DNA of 64,000 nucleotides from Psychroflexus planctonicus. Its GTDB lineage: Bacteria > Bacteroidota > Bacteroidia > Flavobacteriales > Flavobacteriaceae. The notes beneath the pieces were generated by a model, which was given only the letters and a program-made list of their open reading frames with translations, did no database searches and was not told the origin of the DNA. The translations under genes were made by a program, and so were the position numbers. This document shows, in pieces, positions 29,902 through 33,119 of this stretch (position 1 is the stretch's first letter; every line of letters starts with the position of its first letter). The stretch lies in assembly GCF_014640195.1 (NCBI RefSeq), contig NZ_BMGM01000003.1, forward strand, positions 248,001 to 312,000, in the 5' to 3' direction.

Positions 29902-29920
29902 AAAATTAGTTTTACATTGT

Positions 29921-29939
29921 CACGGATTGCAAATCTGCA
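29921..29939. repeat. Type-A palindrome (degenerate copy)
   Basis: CACGGATTGCAAATCTGCA, one mismatch from the inverted-repeat core GCGGATT-GCA-AATCCGC seen at 32069-32087. It lies between the cryptochrome-like gene and the dipeptidase gene, the farthest copy from the transposase. Confidence 0.6.
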
Positions 29940-29994
29940 AGCTTGACTCTACTATTGAAAAAATTAATATCTTTCAATTTCTAAATTCCAAAAA

Positions 29995-30681
29995 ATGAAA
30001 CTAAAGTTTTTGACCTTAATTGTATTATTCGTCTTCATGAGTTGTTCTGAAGACAAATTAGATGTTCAAAGTCAAGTTGAAGATTATGTAGCTGACGTAA
30101 AAAAGAATCCTGATTTTAAAATGATTGATCTAAAAGAATTTGGCAAAAACTTGAAATTCGATATCCGTTATGCAACCAAAAATAACTTTACCAAAACCAT
30201 CATTTATCCTGAAGCTGAAGCTTTTGCCAGAAAACCCGTTGCTGAAGCTTTAATAAAAGCCAATGATTCTTTATTGAAACTAGGTTACAGAATTAAAGTG
30301 TTTGACGCATACCGACCATACCAAGCTACCGTAAAATTTTATGAAGTTTATCCAGATACCGATTTTGTGGCCGATCCTAAATTTGGATCTCGACATAACC
30401 GCGGTTGTGCTATCGACTTGACTTTGGTTGATGCCAAAACTGGTCTAGAAATCAAAATGCCCACTACTTACGATGATTTTACCGAAAAAGCACATCCTGA
30501 TTATGTAGATTTACCTGAAGAAATTATTAAAAATCGAGATTTACTTATCGAAGTTATGACCAACTTTGGTTTTAGCGTTTATCCAAGTGAATGGTGGCAT
30601 TTCGACTACCAAGGTTGGGAAAGATACCCATTAATGGATTTATCTTTTGAAGAATTACAAAAAACTAAAAAGTTGAAATAA
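29995..30681 (+). CDS. D-Ala-D-Ala dipeptidase, DdpX/VanX family (M15D), lipoprotein
   Basis: A 228-residue lipoprotein (FVFMSC, Cys17). The peptidase domain has the zinc-site motif SRHNRGCAIDLTL, containing H and D ligands, and the C-terminal EWWHF with the catalytic Glu and last His ligand. The upstream FDAYRPYQA contains the substrate-binding Arg. Enzymes of this family cleave D-Ala-D-Ala dipeptides. In flavobacteria they are common and located in the envelope, and are probably for cell-wall recycling rather than glycopeptide resistance: no vanH, vanA or vanRS homologues are nearby. A type-A palindrome lies upstream. Confidence 0.88.
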   Translation: MKLKFLTLIVLFVFMSCSEDKLDVQSQVEDYVADVKKNPDFKMIDLKEFGKNLKFDIRYATKNNFTKTIIYPEAEAFARKPVAEALIKANDSLLKLGYRIKVFDAYRPYQATVKFYEVYPDTDFVADPKFGSRHNRGCAIDLTLVDAKTGLEIKMPTTYDDFTEKAHPDYVDLPEEIIKNRDLLIEVMTNFGFSVYPSEWWHFDYQGWERYPLMDLSFEELQKTKKLK

Positions 30682-30775
30682 ATATATATTCAATTTGCAA
30701 TTTGCTTTACTTAAAGTTTAAGTTCTATTGATTCATATATATAATCCCTGATATTAAGCTTAAAAAATTAATAAA

Positions 30776-31396
30776 ATGTTTGGTGGTGGCGGTAGTATTC
30801 AAGGAATGATAACTAGCCTAAGTAACAATAAAAAGTTGCTTAGGTCTAAACGACTATTTCATAAAGAACATAGCTTTTTGAAGCGCAAGCAAGAATATGT
30901 TAATGCGTCTGGCAAAAAAACATCTTTAAAAAAGGCAACGAAAGAAGAATTGTTGGCGATAAGGAAAAAAGTAATAAAAGAACGAAAAAAGCAAAATTTA
31001 CTACTTTTAAGTATTTTCATTTTATTGTTGACTATAATCTCTTATTTGGCTTCAATTTCATTTAAACAGATTGATTTAAAACTTGAAGAACAAAAAAAAT
31101 CAGAATATAATAAAAAGGAAAAAGAGTTTTTATTGCTAGTGAAAGAAGGAGATGAATGGTTTAAAAAAGGAAATTGGTATAATTCAGTTTTTAAATATGA
31201 AAAAGCAATCAAATTATTTCCAGAAAACTACGATATTAGTTATAGATTAGTAAATGCATATAGTTTTCAATGTGAAAATGACTTTGAAAACTGCCAAGTA
31301 GCGAAAAAACTCTTGGATGAACTATTTTTTACCTTCCCCAACAAAAAGGAAGAATTGTTAGAGATCAAAGATAGACTGCATTTGGAGTATCAATGA
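30776..31396 (+). CDS. Hypothetical single-pass membrane protein with TPR-like C-terminus
   Basis: A 206-residue protein of unknown function. The first 75 residues are highly basic (many Lys/Arg, with a Gly-rich start FGGGGSIQGM). One transmembrane helix follows at about 77-97 (LLLLSIFILLLTIISYLASI). The C-terminal part has tetratricopeptide-like helices (EGDEWFKKGNWYNSVFKYEKAIKLFPENY). It is Lys-rich and AT-rich compared with nearby genes, as often seen in accessory genes. Remnant RAYT sequence begins just 22 nt after its stop codon. Confidence 0.6.
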   Translation: MFGGGGSIQGMITSLSNNKKLLRSKRLFHKEHSFLKRKQEYVNASGKKTSLKKATKEELLAIRKKVIKERKKQNLLLLSIFILLLTIISYLASISFKQIDLKLEEQKKSEYNKKEKEFLLLVKEGDEWFKKGNWYNSVFKYEKAIKLFPENYDISYRLVNAYSFQCENDFENCQVAKKLLDELFFTFPNKKEELLEIKDRLHLEYQ

Positions 31397-31418
31397 TAGA
31401 CTTGAAAGCAAAAGATAT

Positions 31419-31499
31419 GAAGATTATTACTTAAGTTCAGCATGGAATTATGCAGGATTAGAAAGTGAACTGAATGTAGTTGTTTTGAGCTTGTTATAA
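31419..31499 (+). pseudogene. Remnant of a RAYT 3' end (27 codons including stop)
   Basis: In one frame this reads EDYYLSSAWNYAGLESELNV and VVLSLL-stop. It matches the last 26 residues of the intact RAYT at 32319-32873 at 20 positions. No upstream part is present: the sequence before it belongs to the membrane-protein gene. A degenerate type-A palindrome follows 48 bp after the stop codon. Confidence 0.8.
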
Positions 31500-31547
31500 T
31501 GATTCTGCAAATACTGCTATTTTTTTTAGTCAATGGGAAAATGTTTT

Positions 31548-31566
31548 CACGGATTACAAATCTTAG
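31548..31566. repeat. Type-A palindrome (degenerate) after RAYT remnant 1
   Basis: CACGGATTACAAATCTTAG keeps the left arm and loses most of the right. It starts 48 bp past the remnant stop codon. A further weak copy is at about 31592-31612. Confidence 0.55.
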
Positions 31567-31637
31567 AACTAGCGTTTAAACAAAAATATAGTCGCAGATT
31601 GCAAGTAGATGCATTCTCGTAAATTCTAAATAAAAAA

Positions 31638-32045
31638 ATGATGACGGTAAAATTTAAAAAGAAAAGACGTTTGTGGTTGAATTCCATTAGTTTAATAATA
31701 GTAATTGCGTTTATCTATTCGGTATGGAATTTTTTAACAAACGACTCTAACATTTGGTTAATGATCTCATTTGTATTTCAAGTGGCGTTTTGGCTTGGCA
31801 TGATAGGGTTTCAAGCTGTAAAATATGACGATGAAAAAGTAATAGCTCAATTTGGATGGCCTAGGATTAAATACACGGATATTATTAGTATTGAGAAAAA
31901 GTTTGGCGATATTTTGATTAAATCTGAAAAAAGAGATATAGGAATCAACAAAGATGTAGCTGATGAAGAATCTTTAAATCAATTTTTAGAACATCTTAAA
32001 AAGAAAATACCAGAACCTATGAAAAATAGTTTAAATGTGTTTTAG
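31638..32045 (+). CDS. Hypothetical two-helix membrane protein
   Basis: A 135-residue protein with two transmembrane helices in the first 65 residues, and a C-terminal segment of beta-strands (KYDDEKVIAQFGWPRIKYTDIISIEKKFGDILI) that resembles PH-like domains of small bacterial membrane proteins. It is Lys-rich and has a leading MMTVKFKKKRR. No clear homologue family is recognised. It lies between two RAYT-related repeats in the accessory zone. Confidence 0.6.
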   Translation: MMTVKFKKKRRLWLNSISLIIVIAFIYSVWNFLTNDSNIWLMISFVFQVAFWLGMIGFQAVKYDDEKVIAQFGWPRIKYTDIISIEKKFGDILIKSEKRDIGINKDVADEESLNQFLEHLKKKIPEPMKNSLNVF

Positions 32046-32068
32046 GAAAAGAATTGCATTAAAATAAT

Positions 32069-32087
32069 CGCGGATTGCAAATCCGCG
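32069..32087. repeat. Type-A palindrome, perfect 8-bp stem
   Basis: CGCGGATTGCAAATCCGCG: CGCGGATT and AATCCGCG pair around GCA. It is the best copy of the type, and begins 24 nt downstream of the two-helix membrane protein gene. Confidence 0.75.
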
Positions 32088-32236
32088 AACTCTTGTGTAG
32101 TTTGTGAAAATTCGATCGCAAACTGTCATTTCGTAAAAATCTGAGTTTAGTAAGATTTTATACGGAATCTCTTCCAATGAAAACTTAAAACAAGTCGAAA
32201 TTGGCATTTTTGGAAAATTTGATAAGATAAATGATA

Positions 32237-32257
32237 GCGCGGAATTGCATTCCGTGC
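32237..32257. repeat. Type-B palindrome upstream of the RAYT gene
   Basis: GCGCGGAATTGCATTCCGTGC: GCGGAAT and ATTCC-GC pair around TGC with one mismatch. It follows the word AAATGATAG, which also precedes the other type-B copy at 33101. It lies 61 nt upstream of the RAYT start codon. Confidence 0.7.
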
Positions 32258-32293
32258 GGCTATATTAACAGTTCATTAATTTATAAAAAAACT

Positions 32294-32301
32294 TAATTTT
32301 G
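32294..32301 (+). promoter_or_regulatory. Putative -7 element (TAATTTTG) of the RAYT gene
   Basis: A full TAnnTTTG match 17 nt before the RAYT ATG. No TTG at -33 (TTC is there instead). Confidence 0.4.
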
Positions 32302-32318
32302 TTTCTATACCATTTAAA

Positions 32319-32873
32319 ATGTCAACTAAATATAAAGCAACAACATCCGAAGATGCATACTTCATCACAATGACAACTGTAGGTTGGATTGATGTATTTA
32401 CTCGTTTAAATCAAAAATACATTATTATAAATTCGCTTCAATATTGCCAGCAAAATAAAGGTTTAGAAATTTACGCGTACTGCTTAATGAGTAATCATTT
32501 GCATTTGTTTTGTAGGGCAACCAATGGAAATATTTTGTCTGATGTAATAAGAGATTTCAAAAAGTTTACTTCCAAGGAAATCATTCAAAACATAATAAAC
32601 GAACCAGAAAGCAGGAGAGATTGGATGTTAGAAAGTTTCAAAAAAGCGTGCAAGCATCTTAAACGAAACCAACAATATAAAGTTTGGCAAAACGGTTATC
32701 ATGCTGAGCATATTTTTAGCAATTCATTTATAAAACAAAAAGTGAATTACATTCACAATAATCCTGTAAAAGACAAAATAGTTACTTCACCAGAAGATTA
32801 TTACTTTAGCTCAGCTAGAAATTATGCAGGATTAGAAAATGAATTGGATGTGATTATTTTAAGCTTACTATAA
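32319..32873 (+). CDS. REP-associated tyrosine transposase (RAYT), Y1/HUH family
   Basis: The 184-residue protein is a Y1-type single-strand transposase of the RAYT group. The metal-binding HUH motif is H60-L61-H62 in AYCLMSNHLHLF. The catalytic Tyr is Y144 in VNYIHNNPVKDKIV, the segment diagnostic for RAYTs as opposed to classical IS200/IS605 TnpA. The gene is intact, with a probable promoter box. Palindromes lie on both sides: type B 61 nt upstream and type A 41 nt downstream of its stop. RAYTs in other bacteria are thought to spread REP palindromes at single-stranded DNA. No terminal IS boundaries are visible. Confidence 0.88.
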   Translation: MSTKYKATTSEDAYFITMTTVGWIDVFTRLNQKYIIINSLQYCQQNKGLEIYAYCLMSNHLHLFCRATNGNILSDVIRDFKKFTSKEIIQNIINEPESRRDWMLESFKKACKHLKRNQQYKVWQNGYHAEHIFSNSFIKQKVNYIHNNPVKDKIVTSPEDYYFSSARNYAGLENELDVIILSLL

Positions 32874-32914
32874 TTATAGATGATGCTAAATTTTAGTTAG
32901 TAGAAATGTATTTT

Positions 32915-32933
32915 CACAGATTGCAAATCCGCA
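32915..32933. repeat. Type-A palindrome following the intact RAYT gene
   Basis: CACAGATTGCAAATCCGCA, one substitution from a perfect arm pair. It begins 41 bp after the RAYT stop codon. Confidence 0.65.
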
Positions 32934-32941
32934 ATCTCACA

Positions 32942-32968
32942 AATGTAATTGTTTTGAGCTCGTTATAA
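32942..32968 (+). pseudogene. Second RAYT 3'-end remnant (8 codons plus stop)
   Basis: NVIVLSSL-stop, the same last residues as the intact RAYT and remnant 1. The DNA from 32945 to 33038 is a near-direct repeat of 31476-31570, so it is a copied 3' end and not chance similarity. Confidence 0.7.
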
Positions 32969-33015
32969 TGATTCTGCATATGATACTATTTTTTTAGTCA
33001 ATAGGGAAATGTTTT

Positions 33016-33034
33016 CACGGATTGCAAATCCGCG
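33016..33034. repeat. Type-A palindrome after RAYT remnant 2
   Basis: CACGGATTGCAAATCCGCG, starting 47 bp past the remnant stop codon, followed by GAACTC as in 32069-32091. Confidence 0.7.
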
Positions 33035-33043
33035 AACTCGAGT

Positions 33044-33062
33044 CACGGATTGCAAATCCGCG
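33044..33062. repeat. Type-A palindrome (tandem neighbour)
   Basis: CACGGATTGCAAATCCGCG, an identical 19-mer to 33016-33034 only 28 bp further on. Confidence 0.7.
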
Positions 33063-33100
33063 ATCTCACAAGTGTAGTTTGTTAAAATGATAAATGATAG

Positions 33101-33119
33101 TGCGGAATTGCATTCCGCG
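33101..33119. repeat. Type-B palindrome next to kdsB
   Basis: TGCGGAATTGCATTCCGCG: GCGGAAT and ATTCCGC pair around TGC. It is preceded by AAATGATAG and ends 3 nt before the kdsB stop codon, so it could also cap the kdsB transcript. Confidence 0.7.

Follow-up and report, generated by a model that had tools for sequence, protein, structure and literature searches.

A RAYT gene among two kinds of palindrome

We analyzed a 64,000-nucleotide stretch of the Psychroflexus planctonicus genome (contig NZ_BMGM01000003.1, positions 248,001 to 312,000; hereafter the window), in which a gene for a REP-associated tyrosine transposase (RAYT, also TnpAREP) lies among short palindromes of two types, A and B, that are candidate repetitive extragenic palindromes (REPs). 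On one strand, here called the tag strand, each hairpin is preceded on its 5' side by a short tag, which in type B contains the trinucleotide GHT (H, not G). The features of the locus, in window positions, are as follows:

32319..32873, plus strand: RAYT (TnpAREP, subclass 2.6 type), 184 aa, with NHLH, W123-Q124 and YIHNNP; assigned by family model NF047646, conserved residues and fold
32233..32257, plus strand: upstream type-B REP, GATAG tag and hairpin GCGCGGAAT[TGC]ATTCCGTGC with a G-T wobble
33096..33119, plus strand: downstream type-B REP, GATAG tag and TGCGGAAT[TGC]ATTCCGCG, oriented as the upstream copy
33042..33068 (core 33045-33061), minus strand: type-A REP, tag strand GTGAGATCGCGGATT[TGC]AATCCGTGA, GAG in place of GHT
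33014..33040 (core 33017-33033), minus strand: type-A REP, tag GAGTT
32913..32939 (core 32916-32932), minus strand: type-A REP, foot changed at two positions, tag GAGAT
32067..32093 (core 32070-32086, perfect stem), minus strand: type-A REP upstream of the RAYT, tag GAGTT
29919..29945 (core 29922-29938), minus strand: decayed type-A REP, tag AAG
31546..31567, minus strand: degenerate type-A REP behind a RAYT 3' fragment
31419..31545, plus strand: degraded duplicate of the RAYT 3' end that spans ~27 terminal codons with the stop, followed by the 3' spacer, and continues into the palindrome at 31549
32942..33013, plus strand: second duplicate of the RAYT 3' end, with ~9 terminal codons (stop included) and the 3' spacer, reaching the palindrome at 33017

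An earlier note on this DNA had described an intact RAYT with HLH at residues 60-62 and a tyrosine at 144, and this reading held. The protein matched NF047646 (REP_Tyr_transpos; E 1.3e-31, 109.5 bits against a cut-off of 80) and Y1_Tnp (E 1.6e-9). The HUH histidines H60 and H62 and Y144 were invariant in alignments of 12 and of 84 sequences, as were N148 and P149 of the Y---NP motif in the latter. The best PDB fold match of its AlphaFold model (pLDDT 93.2) was 4er8, a RAYT bound to a REP hairpin (E 1.2e-8, TM 0.64/0.70), which was also found by sequence with the family profile (E 4.3e-9). The gene is transposase-like and its product is a domesticated single-strand transposase. Judged by its sequence, it appears to fit TnpAREP subclass 2.6, a known Bacteroidota class that corresponds to RAYT group 5 of Bertels et al. 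2017, mostly from Bacteroidetes (PMC6006769; this paper and PMC8266576 are cited throughout for their available sections). Quentin et al. 2018 (PMC6006769) give for this subclass a length of ~179 aa and the motifs NH[LIV]H, WQ and YIH[QN]NP; the RAYT, with 184 aa, NHLH, WQ and YIHNNP, seems ordinary in kind. The IS200/IS605 family model NF033573 scored 26.4 bits on it, below the cut-off of 55, and no multi-copy identical mobile element was seen in its own genome, which held this one copy, a 42% identical paralogue and two fragments.

The whole window was searched for type A at up to two mismatches to GCGGATT-N3-AATCCGC, with a shuffled-sequence control. Five sites were found (29922, 32070, 32916, 33017 and 33045; shuffles expect 0.11 matches), a further match of this search was the type-B site 33102, and a degenerate sixth type-A copy lies at ~31549. 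The six type-A copies reported earlier were thus recovered, five of them within the mismatch limit, but the perfect core quoted for them fits one copy (32070), because three copies have ACGGATT[GCA]..., in which the pair at the foot is a mismatch, G-T if read on the tag strand and A-C on the opposite one. Both reported type-B copies were confirmed, 32239 with one mismatch and 33102 exactly (0.05 expected in shuffles; the third match was the type-A site 32070), and, as had been claimed, neither palindrome occurred elsewhere in the window at up to two mismatches. The type-A consensus in tag-strand orientation (minus) is GTGAGNT-CGCGGATT-TGC-AATCCGTG-AAA, and the upstream type-B copy reads GATAG-CGCGGAAT-TGC-ATTCCGTG on the plus strand; the GATAG tag is present on the type-B copies and absent from the type-A copies. 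In the upstream type-B copy, GAT lies 11-13 nt from the loop, the tag faces outward, the CGC foot stands 81 bases before the RAYT start, and the calculated folding energy is -8.1 kcal/mol for the tag strand versus -5.4 for the other.

The window contains three occurrences of the RAYT 3' end joined to spacer and palindrome: one complete, at 32793-32932, and two remnants, which run from 31419 and from 32942; this unit was therefore duplicated locally and has decayed. The copy at 31419..31545 is 82% identical over 85 nt to 32793-32877 and 85% over 55 nt to 32989-33043, and that at 32942..33013 is 89% identical over 54 nt to 31473-31526. The decayed type-A copy at 29919..29945 sits between a photolyase-family gene and an M15 dipeptidase-family gene.

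Copies of the stem in the genome, the genus and the phylum

The P. planctonicus genome (G000; 3.11 Mb, 34 contigs) contained 38 exact CGGATT-N3-AATCCG sites, against 0 for the pattern control; a looser pattern (CGGAWT, one mismatch) gave 61 sites versus 22, so its control was not clean. In this looser genome-wide search, type B was exact at the window locus alone. We examined 48 copies in 17 stretches (13 type A, 2 type B and 33 at other loci), all of which were outside open reading frames (ORFs) of at least 70 aa. All copies had a single orientation in 10 of the 12 multi-copy clusters, the exceptions being the RAYT locus and L048, and most clusters away from the RAYT consisted of bare units arrayed in a single direction. 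The ORF on the 5' side of the tag lay on the tag strand for 43/48 copies, those within one cluster not being independent. Outside the type-A loci, 25/33 copies had a GAT tag and 29/33 a GHT tag. The flank alignment that the earlier note had proposed (type A, 9 copies from 5 loci; other copies, 12 loci) showed that between loci conservation drops within ~10 bases either side of the hairpin. Conservation is confined to approximately the tag and hairpin, and the repeated unit is therefore ~25-33 nt. Among the 60 best blastn matches shown, those in type-A clusters spanned the palindromes only.

Several other repeats accompanied these clusters. A second REP-like family, CGAAGTT-N3-AACTTCG (19 sites in G000), was mixed into CGGATT clusters at C1:368k, C5:158k and C14. 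At G000:C2:32.1-32.6k and C4:258.7-259k, type-A REPs stood beside a longer repeat, which as read by eye had inverted GTCATGCCG/CGGCATGAC-like ends and, in C2, tandem units of ~230-265 bp. At L048:2168-3117 (G000:C5:243.7-244.6k), two palindromes flanked a 275-aa weakly ankyrin-like ORF, which has a YoeB-type toxin gene and a gene for alkaline phosphatase as neighbors. The arrangement at L048 was considered as a REP-flanked cargo cassette and rejected: the match in genome G012 begins ~20 bp past the right palindrome, but the entire spacer differs from G012, and because of this the region gives no clean proof of a cassette. Nine clusters were compared with G012 in a search for empty sites; no clean insertion was seen in the alignments inspected, which were too diverged to provide evidence either way. 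Gene segments homologous to the cluster surroundings were found in G012 and G001.

In the genus (27 genomes including G000; 16 RAYT hits at E 1e-30), RAYTs were present in 11 genomes, G000 included, and those of the other genomes were at most 46% identical to the window RAYT; other palindromes flanked several of them. The CGGATT stem, with 38 sites in G000, had 2 in G012, 1 each in G008, G022 and G024, and 0 in 22 genomes. Neither outcome that the earlier note had set against a REP/RAYT family was observed: the core was not absent outside the locus, and it was not frequent in the other 26 genomes of the genus. The GCGCGAT stem was found in G003 (15), G013 (8), G010 (2) and G000 (1) and in none of the other 23 genomes; these four genomes are the holders of one supported RAYT clade (L032, L061, L064 and L065), and the sole G000 copy lies ~2.4 kb from the G000 RAYT of that clade. 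CGAAGTT stems (G020, 46; G000, 19; G015, 18; G023, 12; G024, 4; singles in six more; the pattern control gave one match in each of two genomes) flanked RAYTs only in G020, G024 and G025, and this stem fits RAYT-stem pairing less well than CGGATT or GCGCGAT.

The second RAYT of G000 (L041, G000:C1:363008-363571), 42% identical to the window RAYT, had its own ACGAT and ACGAA wobble hairpins within ~210 bp and the GCGCGAT palindrome ~2.4 kb away. A broken RAYT of another lineage (G000:C7:161254-161529) was ~73% identical to the Flavobacterium fluvii RAYT over 92 aa. G025 had four RAYT hits, three within ~6 kb (G025:C1:3306493-3312118), a tandem amplification comparable to that which has decayed in the window.

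We further compared RAYT loci across named genomes, using the best 80 of 385 confirmed loci. With 11 genus loci (including the second G000 RAYT) and the window locus these formed a 92-locus set, which omits L069, whose frame is fused, and the G025 copies L070, L072 and L073; L107, L116, L125, L138, L143, L155, L167 and L172 (in-frame stops) were excluded from alignment A2 and kept in hairpin counts. The closest RAYTs among these 80 were from Flavobacterium limnosediminis (78%), a Lutibacter metagenome-assembled genome (76%), Aquimarina aquimarini (69%), an uncultured Flavobacteriaceae (61%) and Saccharicrinis aurantiacus (59%). All five (L101-L105) had the window-type stem near the gene. Tags of the first four contained GAT (GATAG, GATGG, GATTA) and that of the fifth GTT. 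Their upstream REPs lay 81 to 99 bases from the RAYT in L101, L102 and L104, 246 in L103 and 141 in L105, and type B differs from the REP of these relatives by one swapped T-A pair. Type B is likely homologous, by position, to the REP upstream of the RAYT in these relatives. Type A was rejected as the canonical REP of the window RAYT, as the conserved tag is on type B and type B is placed as in L101, L102 and L104. The five closest relatives had 1 to 7 stem copies per genome, and two others had 5 and 8.

Hairpins of any stem were also strongly enriched near RAYTs. Perfect hairpins numbered 144 in 154 kb near RAYTs (0.93/kb) versus 19 in 139 kb far from them (0.14/kb; shuffles, 0.056/kb), and occurred at 50/81 loci near and 15/78 of the loci having a far window. 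With ORFs masked, hairpins with GHT and a T-first loop were 8x denser near RAYTs (78 in 32.9 kb, 2.37/kb) than far (13 in 44.5 kb, 0.29/kb), and were present at 41/81 versus 7/79 loci. Relaxed hairpins were found within 500 bp at 64/92 RAYT loci and in 6/60 control windows. Of the 30 loci having hairpins on both sides of the gene, 22 had an inner 6-bp stem common to the two sides (permuted mean 1.9, maximum 7 in 2000 draws), and stem similarity correlated with RAYT identity (Mantel r 0.34, 0/2000 permutations, n = 58, shared descent uncorrected). Stems vary freely between lineages and track RAYT relatedness. The earlier suggestion of a flavobacterial REP/RAYT family is supported; the family as such is already filed as subclass 2.6/group 5 (PMC6006769).

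Two loci of this set had unusual features. L177 (NZ_NRCW01000003.1), from a record named Aggregatibacter segnis (Pasteurellaceae), contained a Bacteroidota-type RAYT with wobble hairpins, which represents either a transfer or a mislabelled contig. L142 (Chitinophagaceae bacterium LY-5) had seven hairpins of a single stem, repeated in direct orientation within the 1 kb that follows the RAYT, mostly at intervals of 132 bp.

A tag, a T-first loop and a G-T wobble

A search of 740 foot combinations around a 5-bp stem, from which the tag was excluded, gave CGC/GTG as the commonest foot by loci (38; the mirror CAC/GCG represents the same hairpins), followed by TCG/CGA (11). The CGC/GTG foot carries a single G-T pair, and was present at 85 sites in 38/92 loci near RAYTs versus 4 sites in 3/61 far-window loci. 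In these wobble hairpins the bases 13, 12 and 11 nt from the loop were G (0.85), not G (1.00) and T (0.96), the tag logo was G-H-T-R-S, GHT was found in 63/85 sites, and the loop began with T in 85/85. Hairpins lacking this foot, read on the strand with the T-first loop, had G (0.62), not G (0.99) and T (0.74) at the same positions; GHT was present in 62/104 such readings versus 4/96 on the opposite strand (38/238 readings, whose loops fitted neither class, were set aside). The tag faced outward in 69/85 wobble hairpins, and 16 of the 38 wobble loci had outward hairpins on both sides. Mapped on the RAYT tree, the wobble trait required 13 changes versus 21.9 with shuffled labels (minimum 15 of 300), or 11 versus 16.8 (minimum 12) with stricter labels (65 and 55 of 84 rows labelled, respectively). 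Calculated folding favored the tag strand by 1.6 to 2.7 kcal/mol in 4/4 REPs tried. No conserved 3' cleavage dinucleotide was seen, information 3' of the hairpin being low, and the GT[AG]G tetranucleotide 5' of the stem in canonical GTAG REPs was not found in the tags examined.

Bacteroidota RAYTs may share a stem-independent code, in which GHT stands 11-13 nt from a T-first loop and, in one large set, a G-T wobble selects the strand, with a REP lineage of P. planctonicus having switched its guide and then spread; we regard this proposal as evenly balanced. A recognition code independent of stem sequence would therefore leave stems free to change with each RAYT lineage.

The proposed switch concerns type A. 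Position 11 was G in 13/13 type-A copies of G000 (tag GAG in 11, GTG in 1 and AAG in 1), which were distributed over five loci (the window locus, C2:32k, C4:955, C4:259k and C13:1k). As G replaces T in all type-A tags, these palindromes may be a dispersed subfamily with a switched guide, derived locally by an alteration of the tag. Copies at all five loci share the change at position 11 and therefore spread after it, or were copied from one having it; contigs C4 and C13 share their first 126 bases, so two of these loci may be copies of one another. That the type-A lineage changed its guide (T11 to G) and spread to four further intergenic loci is part of the shared-code proposal and could equally prove right or wrong. 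The two types differ in their tags; that one protein binds both, as the earlier note had suggested, is plausible. If the switch is true, this genome would offer a natural guide-switch experiment, and the A/B pair at one locus would provide a direct test of whether a changed guide shifts the cleavage site.

Proposed mechanism, alternatives and known systems

We consider the locus to be, with good probability, a REPtron, composed of a domesticated single-strand transposase (RAYT/TnpAREP, subclass 2.6 type) and its cognate REP hairpins. The RAYT would bind one REP strand folded as a hairpin, reading the G-H-T guide 11-13 nt 5' of the loop, the T that opens the loop and, in this clade, the single G-T wobble at the foot, which would leave the tag strand better folded than its complement; stem letters would change between RAYT lineages. 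HUH-Tyr144 chemistry is predicted to cleave and join the REP, yielding copies of ~25-33 nt in intergenic spacers. The comparisons above establish that hairpins and RAYT are associated, that this association is specific to the genome and to the lineage of the RAYT, that tag, loop and wobble recur, and how large the conserved unit is; the strand asymmetry is established by calculation. REP binding, cleavage and dispersal by the window RAYT are what we infer from these results. With so short a rule, the REPs of subclass 2.6 can be located by pattern searches throughout the phylum and every RAYT matched to its own substrate, and single-base predictions follow for binding and cleavage assays; a recognition pattern this simple would open an obscure class of enzymes that spread repeats to experimental tests.

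Several observations weigh against this interpretation. Type A, the commoner kind at the window locus, carries G at the position that is T in the wobble class (weighted frequency 0.96). GHT was missing from 22/85 wobble sites and 42/104 other hairpins, the outward bias was weaker without the CGC/GTG foot (64/104), and 28/92 RAYT loci had no qualifying hairpin within 500 bp. Copy number was modest (1 to 8 in the seven same-stem genomes, many on the RAYT's own contig). G000 has 19 CGAAGTT palindromes, yet no RAYT of that type was found there, and G015 (18) and G023 (12) had no RAYT at E 1e-30, these genomes being 79-80% complete. Spacers of G012, the closest genome, were too diverged to align, and no empty site was found. 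Finally, 43/48 copies follow a gene on the tag strand, as an RNA role would also give.

Among the alternatives, the hairpins could mark both termini of an autonomous element, IS200-like or TIRtron-like, in which the whole RAYT unit moves and free palindromes are decayed ends. This would agree with the 16/38 wobble-hairpin loci that have outward hairpins on both sides, with the threefold occurrence of RAYT 3' end and palindrome at the window locus, and with the four RAYT hits of G025, three within ~6 kb. However, distant clusters in G000 are mostly bare-unit arrays in one orientation (10/12 multi-copy clusters), type-A cluster matches among the 60 best blastn matches shown contain palindromes only, the two RAYTs of G000 are 42% identical, and in subclass 2.6 a genome has 1.8 copies on average, at 40.7% identity (PMC6006769). 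We regard this explanation as unlikely. Somewhat less likely still is that the hairpins function in RNA, as terminators, stability elements or stem-loops of 3' untranslated regions, with the RAYT an incidental neighbor. The intergenic position of all 48 copies and their orientation relative to the preceding ORF (clustered copies not being independent) would suit such a role, and the G-T wobble would equally be a G-U pair in RNA, but CGC/GTG hairpins point mostly outward on either side of the RAYT (69/85), so that one side would be antisense; moreover, no T run was seen directly after the listed stems, and stems track RAYT relatedness and the genome of residence. Short conserved intergenic palindromes can be operators, but binding sites of a host protein or regulator that were simply captured beside the RAYT are very improbable, given stems that change wholesale among congeners and a tag on one strand only.

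Compared with known systems, the REPtron proposed here resembles TnpAREP subclass 2.6 in RAYT length and motifs and in flanking structures that lack GT[AG]G and have copies elsewhere in the genome. That subclass is described as having 'atypical secondary structures' that need manual inspection, with a guide-contact region that is not conserved, and a tag consensus is given for class 3, without one for 2.6 structures (PMC6006769); in many members here, the hairpin has a T loop and a foot with a G-T pair, and a GHT tag stands at a constant distance. With the E. coli TnpAREP and its GTAG REPs (4ER8; PMC8266576), the likeness lies in the HUH-Y1 fold, a strand-specific hairpin, a 5' tag and a stem irregularity. 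The tag is, however, G-H-T at a fixed distance from the loop here and GT[AG]G at the foot in E. coli, and the irregularity is a single G-T pair here and a bulge there, with a guide-contact region unconserved in subclass 2.6 (PMC6006769). REPINs and bacterial interspersed mosaic elements (BIMEs) are likewise short intergenic palindromes tied to a RAYT, but form inverted doublets, in contrast to the uniform orientation in 10/12 multi-copy clusters of G000. IS200/IS605 elements (IS608, ISDra2) are fold relatives with sub-terminal hairpins and a contacted loop T (PMC8266576), from which the window RAYT differs by its NF033573 score below cut-off and by the lack of a multi-copy identical element in its own genome. 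In other RAYT groups, recognition is strand-specific via tag, loop base and stem irregularity, and hairpin choice has been worked out for groups 2 and 3 (PMC8266576); the GHT rule has the same three kinds of features, and its kind is therefore already known. No paper linking RAYT, Flavobacteria and palindromes was found, nor was the GHT/T-loop/wobble rule in the literature searched, although supplementary Table S1 of PMC6006769 might hold it. As far as these searches show, the recognition code and the contrast between types A and B are the new part.

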